IMG/VR virus record: IMGVR_UViG_3300000116_000172 | Coordinates: 1 to 27,046 of that record | Source: a virus | DNA length: 27,046 nt | Strand: one strand, 5' to 3' | Shown: positions 16,601-25,419 of the stretch, piece after piece | Numbering within the stretch: the first letter of the stretch is position 1 | How the letters are laid out: every line of letters starts with the position of its first letter | Translations under genes and position numbers: made by a program | Notes under the pieces: generated by a model | Database searches by the model: none | What the model was told of the DNA's origin: nothing | What the model saw: the letters and a program-made list of their open reading frames with translations, nothing else

Positions 16601-17186
16601 TAATAATACCAAGTTCGTCAAGTAGTTCTGGTTCTGCTTTGATTGCACCTCGAGTAAGGCGATTGAAAGAATCTGTTAAGTCTCTACCTAAGGCTACAGA
16701 AGCATTTTTTGCAACTCTAGCAAGACCCGTAAGTTGGTCGTTTGATAGACCTGCAGCTTGCCCGATAGCAGCTGCTTGTGAAGCATCGTTAAAAGCTAGT
16801 ATTCCACCCGTAGCTTCTTGAATACGGTCTGTCAATAGTTTCATTGACTTACCAGTTTTCATAGCATAGGCTTCTTGGCCTCGTGTTAGAGCTGCAACAT
16901 CACCAGCTCTCTTAAGAAAGCCATATGCCGCAGATATAGCAAATATATTAGCAGCAAGAGTTGCATAGGCGGCTACAAGGCCGCCGGTACCTTGTGCCAT
17001 TTTAGAAAAGTTTTTAGTAGAGTTTGAAGATGCTTGAGCAGCACCTTTAAGGTTTCTATCTGCTGTGCGGGCGCCTTTGCCTACATCATCTAGTCCCTTA
17101 GCTGCTTTTTTAGATTCAAGACCTAACTTTTTAGTTCTGCCTTTATCATCTACTTCTACATCTATCTCAATTTTATTCTTTGCCAT
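13656..17186 (-). CDS. Tail tape measure protein (1176 aa)
   Basis: This sets tail length and is ejected ahead of the DNA. It is long and largely helical, with hydrophobic segments near residues 66-92, 275-305 and 418-446 that could insert in the host membrane. A Lys/Glu-rich coiled coil follows between about 450 and 880. A Gly/Ser/Ala-rich region leads into a C-terminal end (GGVASGSTGGYPAILHGTEAVVPLP) that is very typical of lambda-like tape measures. By the usual rule of about 0.15 nm per residue it predicts a tail near 170 nm; this is inference. It follows the G/GT chaperones with a TAATG overlap. Confidence 0.94.
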   Translation of the reverse strand: MAKNKIEIDVEVDDKGRTKKLGLESKKAAKGLDDVGKGARTADRNLKGAAQASSNSTKNFSKMAQGTGGLVAAYATLAANIFAISAAYGFLKRAGDVAALTRGQEAYAMKTGKSMKLLTDRIQEATGGILAFNDASQAAAIGQAAGLSNDQLTGLARVAKNASVALGRDLTDSFNRLTRGAIKAEPELLDELGIIIRLDKVTKDYSRTLGKNAKDLTQFEKSQAVVNAVLAQGVEKFDEVGANVNQVARLGKGFTDLVKQIGEFIDPISSFISGALANNIHGLAAAFSVLGLSIGRALMPAMPAMAGVDELAKSATQDLAGIAGKGATADKMRDGTFDEDVLRRLKKAHQSKTSTVINLDGMEKSARMKNIKIIEAAHLSALAKEKTGVQAWYLNWKANLAALQAEHGKTMGLIKAATATMVSGVNKLLSAVAFIGMLYTAITLVKELLNTLKDDRIKEIEKSAQALEERFRNQNEEVRKLIRGFKEAASPMETLVKQANILSNFSFGGVEGMAQGLGDTFLKEMYVQERGEDNIKRYVKKSVAQIPEQNEKVAASMMEVYETIKLQSTAFADFGIKATKGSKAVEKGIVELKKPLDIISGTIPSTAEEYDAAVKLLQTRFSQVNAEAAKLNPVLAAQAGAIKGIGQSAEGFRKFKEELKQTSSQFSKFLSFNRQFTDQLSTLTFDSSASDFFDGTEKGRADLAAIAEALNMTVEAAGKLTRLELIAKFQAQSVDIRQKEFDITSKQKRLEISMAAISRGKSPLQVAELTRESNVLKLRNEMLKIEQAMAILKKNDVSTDDTKMIAEQDKLDLLKEQLLTAERLTLESARQLDAAKAAAEGTAKTEFAALIKGEKSSIKDAFKVIAKSAVEAVADQLAEQAAKMFTDFIFGSPEKTLEVAMNSNTAALNANTAALGGNTTATGVSSSTNIGSSISGFFKPKSSLGAVKAPSIGGGISTSVGASVGDGSITSPITGGGITVDEIVTTGTGAAGTGTLKGLFSGFTANLKDIFSGDTPFLEGIGNIFKDAGTDLKGIFGGLGDILGDLGSGFMSLFGFGGVGAARDGGIFSPGGSKISGYAAGGVASGSTGGYPAILHGTEAVVPLPNNKKIPVEMKGGGEQNNNIVVNVASDGTTSTQGNNGGADNEKLGRAVANAVRDELQNQKRSGGMLNPYGAS

Positions 17187-18021
17187 TAGCCTTTTACGTT
17201 ATGAGTGAAGTTTTGTCCACTGCCTGCAGATCGTTTTCTTTCCTCTGCCTTACGTTTTTGTTCTGCTTTTTCTGCTCGATAGTTTACTATAGTGTTTTCG
17301 TACATTTTCATAATATAGATGACAGTTTTTGGCTCGTCTACATTGTATAGCTTAAATAAGTACTCTATGTTCGACCATTTTTTTCCTAAATAACTTCCGG
17401 ATGCTCCATCCCAGGTATCCTCTAAAAAGCCAAATATAAAAAATGCCACTTGAACCTCTACGGGAAAATCCGAAGGCTCTAGCGGCATCTTATTGGGGTC
17501 GGGCTCTTGATTTAACTGTTCACAAATTTTTAGATATTTGTCAATACTTAAAGAATCTTCCTCTTTTACGTATCGTTCAAGTAACCCCTGTATGAGGGCT
17601 ACTTGTTCCCAGTAAAATTTTCTAGATCACTCACTGTTTCTGTAACCCAATTATCAAAATCACCAGAGTTTTTCATAAGTAACTCTGCATTTTCTTGGGT
17701 AAAGGGCAGTTGATCGTTAGCGTCAAGAGCTGTTATATCTACCAATAGAAGCTCTTCCAAGTACCGATATTTTAAGCCTGACCATCCTTTAATCACTGCC
17801 TTACAGTATTCTGTTAAAAACTTTTCTTCTTCTAAAACTTCTTCGGGTTGACGAGTTTTTTTATTAAATTTAGTAGTTACACATCTTTTACGTAGTTTTA
17901 CTAGCTCTTCTCTTGCTAAGTAACATAGCAAGACTTTCATGCCTGCATACCCAGGGAAGTCAATGCTAACTGTTTTACTAGGAGTCATAAGACTCGCTAA
18001 AGAAACGGGTTTGTCGCTCAT
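17186..18021 (-). CDS. GT: Tail assembly chaperone GT, made by -1 frameshift (about 278 aa)
   Basis: The reading frame ending at 17186 is open, without a stop, back into the end of G, but its first ATG (17488) lacks a ribosome site. Shifting by -1 at AAATTTT (17620-17614) joins 136 codons of G to 142 codons reading YWEQVALIQGLLERYVKEED and onward through PNKMPLEPSDFPVEVQVAFFIFGF. That last segment is typical of the T part of GT chaperones in lambda-like tails. GT binds the tape measure and recruits tube subunits and is absent from the finished tail. The location immediately before the tape measure fits. A weak hairpin (CCCT/AGGG, 5-base loop) starts 15 bases past the slip site. The frameshift is inferred from sequence. 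Confidence 0.88.
17599..18021 (-). CDS. G: Tail assembly chaperone G (140 aa)
   Basis: The zero-frame product reads MSDKPVSLASLMTPSKTV... and stops at TAG (17601-17599). I chose ATG 18021 because AAAGGA lies about ten bases before it; an upstream in-frame GTG at 18072 lies inside the hairpin and would add an implausible leader. The protein is mostly helical with no signal peptide or membrane segment. It is assigned as G by position just before the tape measure gene, by size (lambda G is 140 residues) and by the slippery AAATTTT near its end. It should coat the tape measure during assembly. The primary sequence alone would not give a confident family call. Confidence 0.87.
   Translation of the reverse strand: MSDKPVSLASLMTPSKTVSIDFPGYAGMKVLLCYLAREELVKLRKRCVTTKFNKKTRQPEEVLEEEKFLTEYCKAVIKGWSGLKYRYLEELLLVDITALDANDQLPFTQENAELLMKNSGDFDNWVTETVSDLENFTGNK
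17614..17620 (-). other. Programmed -1 ribosomal frameshift site AAATTTT
   Basis: In the G frame the codons read gaA AAT TTT, a perfect X XXY YYZ heptamer. Both tRNAs can re-pair after a one-base slip. The next -1 codon is TAC and that frame stays open to 17186, while the zero frame meets TAG four codons after the heptamer. The position close to the end of G is the expected one. Confidence 0.88.
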
Positions 18022-18051
18022 TTTATAATTATCCTTTAAAGTTTGTGGAAT

Positions 18052-18077
18052 AAAAAAGGGGGTGAAAATCACCCCCT
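18052..18077 (-). terminator. Intrinsic terminator-like hairpin in the G leader
   Basis: On the minus strand, AGGGGGTGA pairs perfectly with TCACCCCCT around a TTT loop, giving nine base pairs, and runs straight into a tract of six T. This is a textbook intrinsic terminator. It lies between the tube genes and G, but downstream of the promoter at 18098-18126. It could close the head/tube operon, trim transcription into the tail genes, or act as a protective 5' hairpin. Confidence 0.87.
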
Positions 18078-23068: not shown

Positions 23069-23096
23069 AAAAACTTGAGGGAGGCGAACCTCCCTC
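23069..23096 (-). terminator. Terminator after the capsid gene
   Basis: Minus-strand GAGGGAGG pairs with CCTCCCTC around a TTCG loop, eight perfect base pairs, followed two bases later by G and TTTTT. It lies 25 bases past the capsid stop. Since the connector has no clear promoter of its own, this is probably a partial terminator that lets some transcripts continue and lowers downstream gene dosage relative to capsid. Confidence 0.85.
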
Positions 23097-23120: not shown

Positions 23121-25109
23121 TTATGCGCCGCTATATTCAACCTTAACTGCTACATTACCAGTTAGTTGAGTTTTAGTTAGACCCAACGACTGAGAAGCAA
23201 CAATAATATTACGTTGATTCATAACTTCATAGTCCTGTTCAACACTTACGCCACGAAGACGTGGAACTACGTAACCACGAGTATATACAGCTAGAGCAGA
23301 AGTAACGTTTGCTGCGCCAGTTTTGAACTCGTTAGATACAATTACGGGAGAACCGTATAGAGCACCTACAGTACCAGTTACTTTAATAGCAAGCTCAGTA
23401 CCTACTTCATCAAGAGTTTGGAAGTCACCATCACTTAATAGATCATAGTAGGCATCTTGGCTAACGATATAAGTAACATCTGCTGGATTCAAACCATATA
23501 GACCCATTTGTTTACGTGCGTCTAATAGTTTAGCGGAAGTAACTGTAACTGCCGCTGCTGAACCAGCTGCGTTAGTACCAGATTCTACTGCGTCTGCAAC
23601 AAGACCACTGATGTTTGCTGCGTTACCATGAAGGAATGAGTACTCTACTTGCTTACCATGAGCACGTGCAATGCTCTCAGTAATCATTGGCATCAAGTTC
23701 ACTAGAACTGACTCATCTACATCGTTATCGATGAAAGAAGTCGAGATCAAACGATCTGTGTTCATAATTACTTGTTTTGCTTTATAAGCACTTTGAGCAC
23801 CACCATCAGAACTAGCACTAGCTAAAGTACCAGCTTTCTCGGTATCACCTGGAACACCAGTCCAGTTTGCGCCTTGACCATCAGGCTGAATTGGTAGTAC
23901 AGTAGACTTACCATTTACAGTGATTTCACGGAAAAGAGCTGCAACTTTAAGTTCAGATTGAATTTCTTTCTCAATAAGATTAGAAACTTCCTGATCAATA
24001 TCAGCTGCTTCAGCAGTATAATTAATACCAGCTTTTTCTTGAAGGTCTTGAGCAAAACGAGTGTTCATTCCTTTACCAGTAATAGTACCAAGTAAAGAAG
24101 CGTGCATAAACTCTTTACCAAACTTACTTAGATCGCCAGCACCTGAACGGTCAGCAAATTGGCGCTTACTTTTAGACATAGCTTCGATTTCAGCATTTTT
24201 CTCTGCTAGGTCTTTTTGGAAAGAGGCAACTACTTCTTCGATTTTAGCGTCTTTTTCATTAAGTTTCGCTTCAACGTCTGCCATAAGCTTTTCAACACCT
24301 GATTCTACACCAGAGTTAATAACTGTTTTAATTGATTCTGCTTCTAAAGCTTTCGCTTCGTCTGCTTCTTGAGCTGCTTTAGCTTTTGCTTCATCAGCTG
24401 CTTTTTGCTCGGCTTGCTTCATAGCAATCTTAGCAGCAGTGTCTTCTGCTACTTGTTTTGCAAAAGCTTCCAAGTCGATGTCTTTATTGTCCATCTTGAT
24501 CTCCTGATCTGCGGATTTCTCCGCGCTTTTCGGTGCGTCACTAGCTATGCTAGAAGTATTAACTTCGTCCTTAGCCAGAGACTGACCGGCTAGATCTACA
24601 CGATTTGTGAAAGTTTTTTTGAATTCATCGTACTCTTCATCTGAGTCAAATGACTTCGCGAGCGAAAAAGTAGCTGATTGATTGCATGGTACAGATACTA
24701 CCGATACCTCAAACAACTCAGCATCCTTAATCTTTAGTCCGTCGGTTTCCTCTAAATAATCAGCGTCCTTGACCCGGAAACCCACGGAAAAGGCTCCAAG
24801 TACGCCGTCTTTAACAAGTTGCGCCACATTTGCTGGTGCAGCCTTACTAATTTTTGCTTCAAGCTCCAAGCCATCAGGACCGGCTTTCAATCCTGTAGCT
24901 CGACCAATAGGTTTATCATAGTCGTGATTAAACAAGATAATTGGGTTTTTCTCAAAATTTGATAATCCACCTTTCTGCCAAGCTTCGCATGAAATTGAAT
25001 CACCCGCGCGATCAAAGTCTGCTGTACTTGCCATACCACGAATCATCACAGAACCATCATCGGTTTCGTGAGATTTAAAAGTAGATGTTAAATTAAAGAT
25101 TTTATTCAT
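23121..25109 (-). CDS. Prohead protease-scaffold-major capsid fusion (662 aa)
   Basis: Residues 1-155 are an HK97-type prohead protease: His62 in LFNHDYDKPIGR and Ser108 in GAFSVGFR are the expected catalytic pair, and ELFEVSVVSVPCN (about 131-143) is the family's conserved third block. Residues about 206-313 are an acidic Ala/Glu/Lys coiled coil like the HK97 delta (scaffold) domain. Residues about 318-662 are an HK97-fold capsid protein (VNLMPMITESIARAHGKQ, YGLNPADVTYIVSQDAY, LYGSPVIVSN). Protease and capsid are separate genes in HK97. Here a strong internal start at 24494 offers a scaffold-capsid product. The protease should clip the scaffold after assembly, probably near residues 313-320 (inference). 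The start overlaps the previous gene by 8 bases with AAGGAAATAGAAG before it. Confidence 0.95.
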   Translation of the reverse strand: MNKIFNLTSTFKSHETDDGSVMIRGMASTADFDRAGDSISCEAWQKGGLSNFEKNPIILFNHDYDKPIGRATGLKAGPDGLELEAKISKAAPANVAQLVKDGVLGAFSVGFRVKDADYLEETDGLKIKDAELFEVSVVSVPCNQSATFSLAKSFDSDEEYDEFKKTFTNRVDLAGQSLAKDEVNTSSIASDAPKSAEKSADQEIKMDNKDIDLEAFAKQVAEDTAAKIAMKQAEQKAADEAKAKAAQEADEAKALEAESIKTVINSGVESGVEKLMADVEAKLNEKDAKIEEVVASFQKDLAEKNAEIEAMSKSKRQFADRSGAGDLSKFGKEFMHASLLGTITGKGMNTRFAQDLQEKAGINYTAEAADIDQEVSNLIEKEIQSELKVAALFREITVNGKSTVLPIQPDGQGANWTGVPGDTEKAGTLASASSDGGAQSAYKAKQVIMNTDRLISTSFIDNDVDESVLVNLMPMITESIARAHGKQVEYSFLHGNAANISGLVADAVESGTNAAGSAAAVTVTSAKLLDARKQMGLYGLNPADVTYIVSQDAYYDLLSDGDFQTLDEVGTELAIKVTGTVGALYGSPVIVSNEFKTGAANVTSALAVYTRGYVVPRLRGVSVEQDYEVMNQRNIIVASQSLGLTKTQLTGNVAVKVEYSGA
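24492..24505 (-). promoter_or_regulatory. Internal ribosome binding site and start in the protease-capsid fusion
   Basis: AGGAG (24505-24501), a six-base spacer and ATG (24494-24492) lie in the fusion's own frame at codon 206, exactly where the protease linker ends and the scaffold coiled coil begins. Translation from here would give a 457-residue scaffold-capsid protein spanning 24494-23121. The site is at least as good as most true gene starts in the window. The role is inferred. Confidence 0.75.
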
Positions 25110-25419
25110 CTTCTATTTCCTTTTTAACCGAGACTTTAGGTATTGGCTTTTTAACTACTTTCCTAACCTTTGGTGCTACGGGCTTGGGTGGAGGTTCAAC
25201 AATTTTCTCTGTTATTATTTCCTCCCATACTTCAGGAAGATTGACCTTAATAAGTTTTACTACTCTAGGCCATCTCCCAAAATGGTTATTTACTGCTCTA
25301 AGACTAACGGAAGCGTTCGTTAATTTTCCATATTCCTGCTCCGATAGCTCTTTTCCGGCTTCTAACATATCAAATGCTATAGATTTTAGTATTTCTGATC
25401 TTACTCTATCTCTTGCCAC
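25102..25419 (-). CDS. Small basic protein with helix-turn-helix-like segment (105 aa)
   Basis: I do not recognise a virion family for this gene. Residues about 25-60 (SEQEYGKLTNASVSL, then NNHFGRWPRVVKLIK) resemble the small DNA-binding repeat found beside homing endonuclease domains, with its FGxW core. The remainder (75-105) is a Pro/Lys/Val-rich basic tail ending in acidic residues. It starts with GTG (AAGGA nine bases upstream) sharing one base with the portal's TAG, and overlaps the capsid fusion by 8 bases, so it is tightly embedded in the head operon. A role at the DNA-portal interface, in packaging or as a regulator is possible. Function unknown. Confidence 0.75.
   Translation of the reverse strand: MARDRVRSEILKSIAFDMLEAGKELSEQEYGKLTNASVSLRAVNNHFGRWPRVVKLIKVNLPEVWEEIITEKIVEPPPKPVAPKVRKVVKKPIPKVSVKKEIEDE

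Follow-up and report, generated by a model that had tools for sequence, protein, structure and literature searches.

A conserved, probable internal start and a covarying RNA element inside the protease–scaffold–capsid fusion gene of uncultured, mostly marine phages

The stretch of DNA analysed here, the window, is a 27,046-base fragment of a virus record (IMGVR_UViG_3300000116_000172), and its minus strand carries a head and tail module of the siphovirus type. The head part runs in the order HNH-like gene, portal, small ORF, fusion gene, head completion protein and neck protein; the tail part comprises the tail terminator, tail tube proteins, tail chaperones, tape measure and tip proteins. Two adjacent tail assembly chaperone genes (17186–17488 and 17599–18072, minus strand) have a layout that often uses programmed frameshifting. 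No close relatives at the DNA level were found among sequenced phages.

The fusion gene (23121–25109, minus strand) reads from 25109 to 23121 as a single uninterrupted frame of 662 amino acids, predicted mass 70.6 kDa, in which a prohead protease, a linker, a scaffold region and a major capsid protein succeed one another. The protease domain (residues 18–152; 24654–25058, minus strand) matches Peptidase_S78 over residues 18–150 (PF04586, 55.7 bits; cut-off 21) and proheadase_HK97 over residues 48–152 (TIGR01543, 66.3 bits; cut-off 59). Both matches exceed the curated cut-offs, and the criterion for an S78 (HK97-type) prohead protease is thus met. The catalytic residues His62 and Ser108, already listed for the protease in an earlier note made from the sequence alone, are invariant in fused and split relatives alike. 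The assignment rests on these profiles and catalytic residues; in the absence of biochemistry, proteolysis of the scaffold domain is an inference. The HK97-fold major capsid domain (23121–24134, minus strand) has T5-type head protein as its nearest solved structures, and the major_cap_HK97 profile matches residues 259–625 of the fusion. We found no second protease or capsid gene in the window. A strong terminator-like hairpin, GAGGGAGG-UUCG-CCUCCCUC, lies at 23077–23096, directly 3′ of the fusion gene.

Between protease and capsid lie the linker (residues 156–205; 24495–24644, minus strand), variable in protein sequence, and the scaffold (delta-like) region (residues 207–325; 24135–24491, minus strand), which is rich in Ala, Glu and Lys. 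Structure prediction of the fusion reached a pLDDT of only 47, too poor for a fold search, and offers a mere hint that the linker is unstructured and the scaffold region helical. Where the earlier note saw an acidic coiled coil, the region is mildly acidic (27 D/E versus 19 K/R in 119 residues) and its helices are predicted by this low-confidence model alone.

Where might ribosomes begin on this frame? The initiation region of the full-length fusion (25110–25129, minus strand), with a weak Shine–Dalgarno (SD) sequence AAGGA 8 nt from the ATG, overlaps the 3′ end of the upstream small ORF (25102–25419). A further ATG, codon 206 (24492–24494, minus strand), is preceded by the SD sequence AGGAG (24501–24505, minus strand) with 6 nt between them, and is the predicted start of a lone scaffold–capsid protein of 457 amino acids, about 48.4 kDa. 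Frame, profiles and coordinates thus confirm the claim of the earlier note that a continuous protease–scaffold–capsid frame holds AGGAG-N6-ATG at codon 206. As evidence for an internal start, the motif in a single sequence was rejected as too common by chance: the window holds 12 copies of AGGAG-N4-9-ATG where 4.7 are expected. What raises the internal motif above chance is its conservation in comparison. No sigma-70 promoter was found on the coding strand of the linker upstream of the internal ATG; promoter-like sites number no more than chance, and an internal sigma-70 promoter was rejected.

How well is the internal start conserved? The alignment of homologues, proposed in the earlier note for judging this, shows ATG and SD kept in every fused homologue of the family. 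A scan of viral contigs, with the linker peptide as one seed, returned 80 relatives at 63–74% identity, all of them fused (80/80), and all with the ATG in the identical column and GGAG six bases upstream. Because a linker seed risked ascertainment bias, the scan was repeated with a query confined to the capsid domain and with a protease profile. The former yielded 75 new loci whose readable junctions were all fused, save two single frameshifts, with the signal kept. The latter reached relatives at 45–62% identity to a T5-like protease; in fused loci with unalignable linkers the SD–ATG still stood directly before the scaffold. Since the results were equal, we rejected ascertainment bias from the linker seed.

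In total, an ATG with a core SD is found at the protease/scaffold border of 212 of 212 fused homologues and in 69 of 69 clusters (defined below 85% DNA identity), where synonymous resampling expects 24.8 of 69; among other in-frame ATGs of those genes, only 62 of 1044 (6%) have an SD. In the aligned family the position of the ATG is fixed by the alignment. For the 69 most divergent loci we selected, from the ATGs of the linker, one that bore an SD, so that their share of the total is inflated. The clusters are moreover related by descent, and the counts are not independent events. The homologues belong to uncultured phages, mostly marine, that make up a large group. Contigs with this phage gene (L240–L245) were binned into Bacteroidetes, Gammaproteobacteria, Halieaceae and Parcubacteria MAGs, a binning that is doubtful as host evidence because it is taxonomically mixed.

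The conservation extends below the protein level. Glu203 and Met206 are invariant as residues, and the residues around them vary freely. The Glu203 codon is GAG in 34 of 34 clusters (GAG accounts for 29% of Glu codons), and the base before it is always G, whichever residue (Q, K, E or L) is encoded there. The conserved start and its SD are shown at the level of sequence, and with them the frame has two conserved initiation sites.

Is the long product maintained as well? Indels in the linker are multiples of three and its frame is open in all fused loci (80/80, 77/77 and the other fused sets), from which we conclude that the long product, too, is under selection. The linker dN/dS is 0.41; linker dS is depressed, so that the ratio is no clean measure. 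Apparent frame breaks at two loci, one in the protease domain (L116) and one in the scaffold (L144), are single frameshifts in otherwise intact fusions and are likely to be assembly errors. Larger fusions of 970–1040 amino acids also occur (L191, 1509–4427; L194, 1834–4941; L196, 926–4046; L227, 1963–4965). In these an extra N-terminal part of 300–400 amino acids (phrog_2859), which in two of them contains a TUDOR-like domain, is in frame with protease and capsid, and the border SD–ATG is kept.

The nearest sequenced relatives are T5-like phages. In the Demerecviridae phi 3, KIT04 and Stubb the order is portal, small ORF, protease (201–203 amino acids), stop, capsid (463–474 amino acids), head completion; the gene order of the window is the same except that no stop parts protease from capsid, an absence shared by the 212 homologues. 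In alignment, the internal ATG coincides with the position at which T5-like phages begin their separate capsid gene. When the family profile is compared with the solved T5-type head protein of 458 amino acids (hmmsearch to 8ho3, E 4e-54, query 233–642 on chain 26–444), residue 233 aligns with its residue 26, and codon 206 therefore falls at the first residue of the T5-type protein. The predicted internal product, at 457 amino acids, nearly equals in length the 458-residue T5-type precursor. Because the profile sets codon 206 at that first residue, we regard the internal product as the equivalent of T5 pb8; the homology of the start is shown, the production of the protein is inferred. The T5 prohead contains 775 copies of pb8, whose scaffold domain is cut off by pb11, the protease (PMC5292684). 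T5 thus resembles the window family in having a homologous protease and capsid and in carrying its scaffold as an N-terminal domain of the capsid protein, but in two genes. In a tree all split T5-like phages fall into a single clade, next to two fused lineages. A single fusion or fission explains this; with no outgroup, the tree does not give the direction.

Does the nucleotide sequence around the internal start carry more than the protein code? A synonymous-substitution trough covers codons about 163–222 (24444–24623, minus strand), reaching about 130 nt upstream and 50 nt downstream of the internal ATG. Its core dS is 0.04–0.15 and its edges are at about 0.34 and 0.27, compared with about 0.45 elsewhere in the gene (61 pairs); synonymous substitutions are 3–10-fold lower across it. 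The coding strand over the trough folds with z = −4.3. A second, narrower trough (0.106) lies at codons 103–114 (about 24768–24803, minus strand), around the catalytic Ser108.

Both the consensus fold of 34 clusters and a count of their base pairs support two hairpins in this RNA, a conserved structure directly upstream of the internal SD that the earlier note had missed. Hairpin I (24531–24588, minus strand) is a long irregular stem of three stacked helices in which CUGGCUA/UAGCUAG is invariant and the outer and apical helices covary. Hairpin II (24511–24524, minus strand), GCGGA-GAAA-UCCGC, ends just 5′ of the SD, and its stem covaries (GCGGA/UCCGC, GUAGA/UCUAC, GUGGA/UCCAC, GAACC/GGUUC and others). 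Over both hairpins 97.3% of cells are paired, against 90.9% in shuffled alignments; double compensatory changes number 43, against 7.8; and the covariation score is 0.185, against 0.078. None of 500 shuffles reached the observed values, and sliding the pairing partners lowered the paired fraction to 27–40%. An invariant G–U pair favours the RNA of the coding strand. The mere presence of a hairpin was rejected as evidence, because 53% of other in-frame ATGs likewise have a stem of at least 4 bp by chance; for this reason the case rests on covariation and on composition-matched shuffles. The covarying RNA is thus shown by sequence.

How far does the element extend? A covariance model finds it in the close family and matches many divergent fused loci at the equivalent place (E 1e-7 to 1e-3). 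The same model did not find the element in the T5-like split phages searched, which have no comparable hairpins before the capsid start, or in the other fusion lineages searched, where hairpins gave no consistent signal; nor does the window contain an Rfam match at the gathering threshold. As a check we chose 79 loci solely for matching a 26-base pattern from hairpin I. The sequence was long enough at 77 of them, and each of the 77 has an in-frame GGAG-N6-ATG with no stop between, as well as hairpin II; about a quarter of these contigs were already in the earlier sets, and the check is not wholly independent. At three loci (L204, 2629–2694; L208, 2566–2629; L243, 3611–3674) the model also gives weak second matches (E 0.01–0.04), close to where the portal gene ends and about 0.3–0.4 kb upstream of the fusion gene. 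These may be chance hits or a further hairpin that precedes a start.

The role of the hairpins is a matter of inference. Elongating ribosomes will unfold both. The element might keep the SD free of pairing with upstream sequence, direct RNA processing or serve as the binding site of a regulator; our data do not distinguish among these possibilities, and it is possible that the hairpins serve something besides initiation.

Which of the two starts is the stronger? The internal SD pairs better with the 16S tail than does the full-length SD in 32 of 32 family clusters, with mean energies of −8.5 and −5.2 kcal/mol, respectively, and in 29 of the 32 the internal start also comes out ahead on the sum of opening and SD energy. 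The relative SD strength is shown by sequence; the comparison of energies is a crude model, and the excess of scaffold–capsid over fusion that it predicts is an inference. A strong SD within a translated frame does not guarantee initiation. That the internal start yields scaffold–capsid as the majority product, as the earlier note had proposed, is supported by conservation, by the T5 alignment and by SD strength, and is probably right.

Taken with the T5 homology, these observations lead us to a reading that we consider very likely, translation being undemonstrated and expression data lacking: a dual-product head gene in a T5-type head module, giving a minority of fusion and a majority of scaffold–capsid. 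Ribosomes starting at 25109 would make the 662-residue protease–scaffold–capsid fusion; those starting at 24494, from a stronger SD shielded by the RNA hairpin, would make the 457-residue counterpart of pb8. Long and short products would co-assemble through their common scaffold and capsid domains. A minority of shell subunits would then carry the protease inside by a covalent tether, and the protease would remove the scaffold before packaging. That both products are made, their ratio and their co-assembly are inferred. Packaging of the protease by covalent tether, also put forward in the earlier note, remains an inference without translation, copy-number or packaging data.

Might the fusion be the only product? 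On this account it is the protein that requires Glu203 and Met206, perhaps as a cleavage site between protease and scaffold. The account has in its favour that both residues are invariant and that the fusions of Emperor, SallySpecial and Idaho have no border start. Against it, Glu is encoded by GAG throughout and preceded in every case by G, with free neighbours; dS collapses, the RNA covaries and the site matches the T5-type capsid start exactly. We consider this account very unlikely. Nearly as improbable, in our judgement, is that the SD-like site and hairpins form a site of ribosome pausing for folding, or of RNA processing, with the ATG incidental. In its favour, a pause or a cleavage site would fit well with folded RNA and an SD-like motif where two domains meet, and hairpin I is long and irregular. 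A pause, however, needs no ATG at a fixed N6, yet the ATG is present in all 212 homologues and in all 77 members of the hairpin-selected set, and it equals the capsid start of the split relatives. The converse proposal is that the short product alone matters, the stop-less junction being accidental and the fused protein unneeded. T5-like phages do work with separate proteins, but the frame is open across the fused loci and no other gene for either protein was found in the window; this proposal is highly unlikely.

Fusion of these functions is itself already known, and the novelty lies in the dual start conserved in the window family and, still more, in the covarying RNA element. Triple fusions have been described in actinophages (PMC7302621, PMC5513430), in Microbacterium groups EE/EL, Arthrobacter AM/AU/AN, Gordonia CW/DM and Rhodococcus RRH1; Pseudomonas phage MD8 has protease, scaffold and capsid in a single gene with a ClpP-like protease (PMC8508860). 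Salmonella Gifsy-2 is also a triple fusion with a ClpP-like protease. All hold the three functions in one frame, as the window gene does, but with little or no sequence similarity to its family. In the literature searched we found no report of an internal start within a protease–capsid fusion or of this covarying RNA element inside the capsid gene.

The arrangement has partial parallels elsewhere. In lambda C/Nu3, an in-frame internal start in a protease–scaffold gene gives the C-terminal product alone. (Shaw and Murialdo 1980, on lambda C/Nu3, is cited in PMC8508860.) The window family shares with it a conserved in-frame SD start at a domain border. In lambda, however, the internal product is free scaffold without capsid, the capsid has its own gene and the protease is of another fold; the window gene, with an S78 protease and a short product that includes the capsid, is no member of that type. 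The comparison with lambda drawn in the earlier note is amended accordingly, the nearest relative being T5, with separate protease and pb8 genes. HK97 gp4/gp5 resemble the window gene in protease type and in a capsid with an N-terminal scaffold domain; they are separate genes, and the window sequence is nearer to T5. Herpesvirus UL26/UL26.5 are nested, 3′-coterminal genes that give protease–scaffold and scaffold alone. They differ in using separate promoters, in a eukaryotic host and in a capsid protein that lies outside the fusion.

Annotated as single proteins, such fusions pose a puzzle of stoichiometry, since each subunit would carry a protease. With a conserved hidden start the puzzle would be solved for a large group of uncultured phages, probably also for several fusion lineages in culture, and a question of head assembly would be reduced to a simple start-codon experiment; many database records would then miss a major structural product. 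A bolder reading is that the two-hairpin element is an active regulator, such as an RNA-processing site or a site of autogenous control to which a head protein binds, and that it determines the proportion of subunits with and without protease, such internal starts having arisen repeatedly in unrelated fusions. We lean slightly against it.

How widespread are border starts in other fusions? A border SD–ATG, unannotated in each case, is found in six of the nine actinophage fusions examined: RRH1 (M274), GMA5 (M265), McGonagall (M276), BlueFeather (M204), KylieMac (M160) and Atraxa (M165). In a second fusion lineage, four plasmid-borne prophage or phage fusions have one as well. The remaining three of the nine actinophage fusions, those of Emperor, SallySpecial and Idaho, do not, and in such phages a protease on every subunit may be tolerable. 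The border start thus likely recurs across fusion lineages without being universal. In RRH1, GMA5 and McGonagall (L251–L253) a hydrophobic, membrane-like segment is fused ahead of the protease. In SallySpecial (L254, M134) and Emperor (L255, M121) an SD–ATG lies before the protease domain rather than after it, and a start there would give a protein without the N-terminal membrane-like segment.
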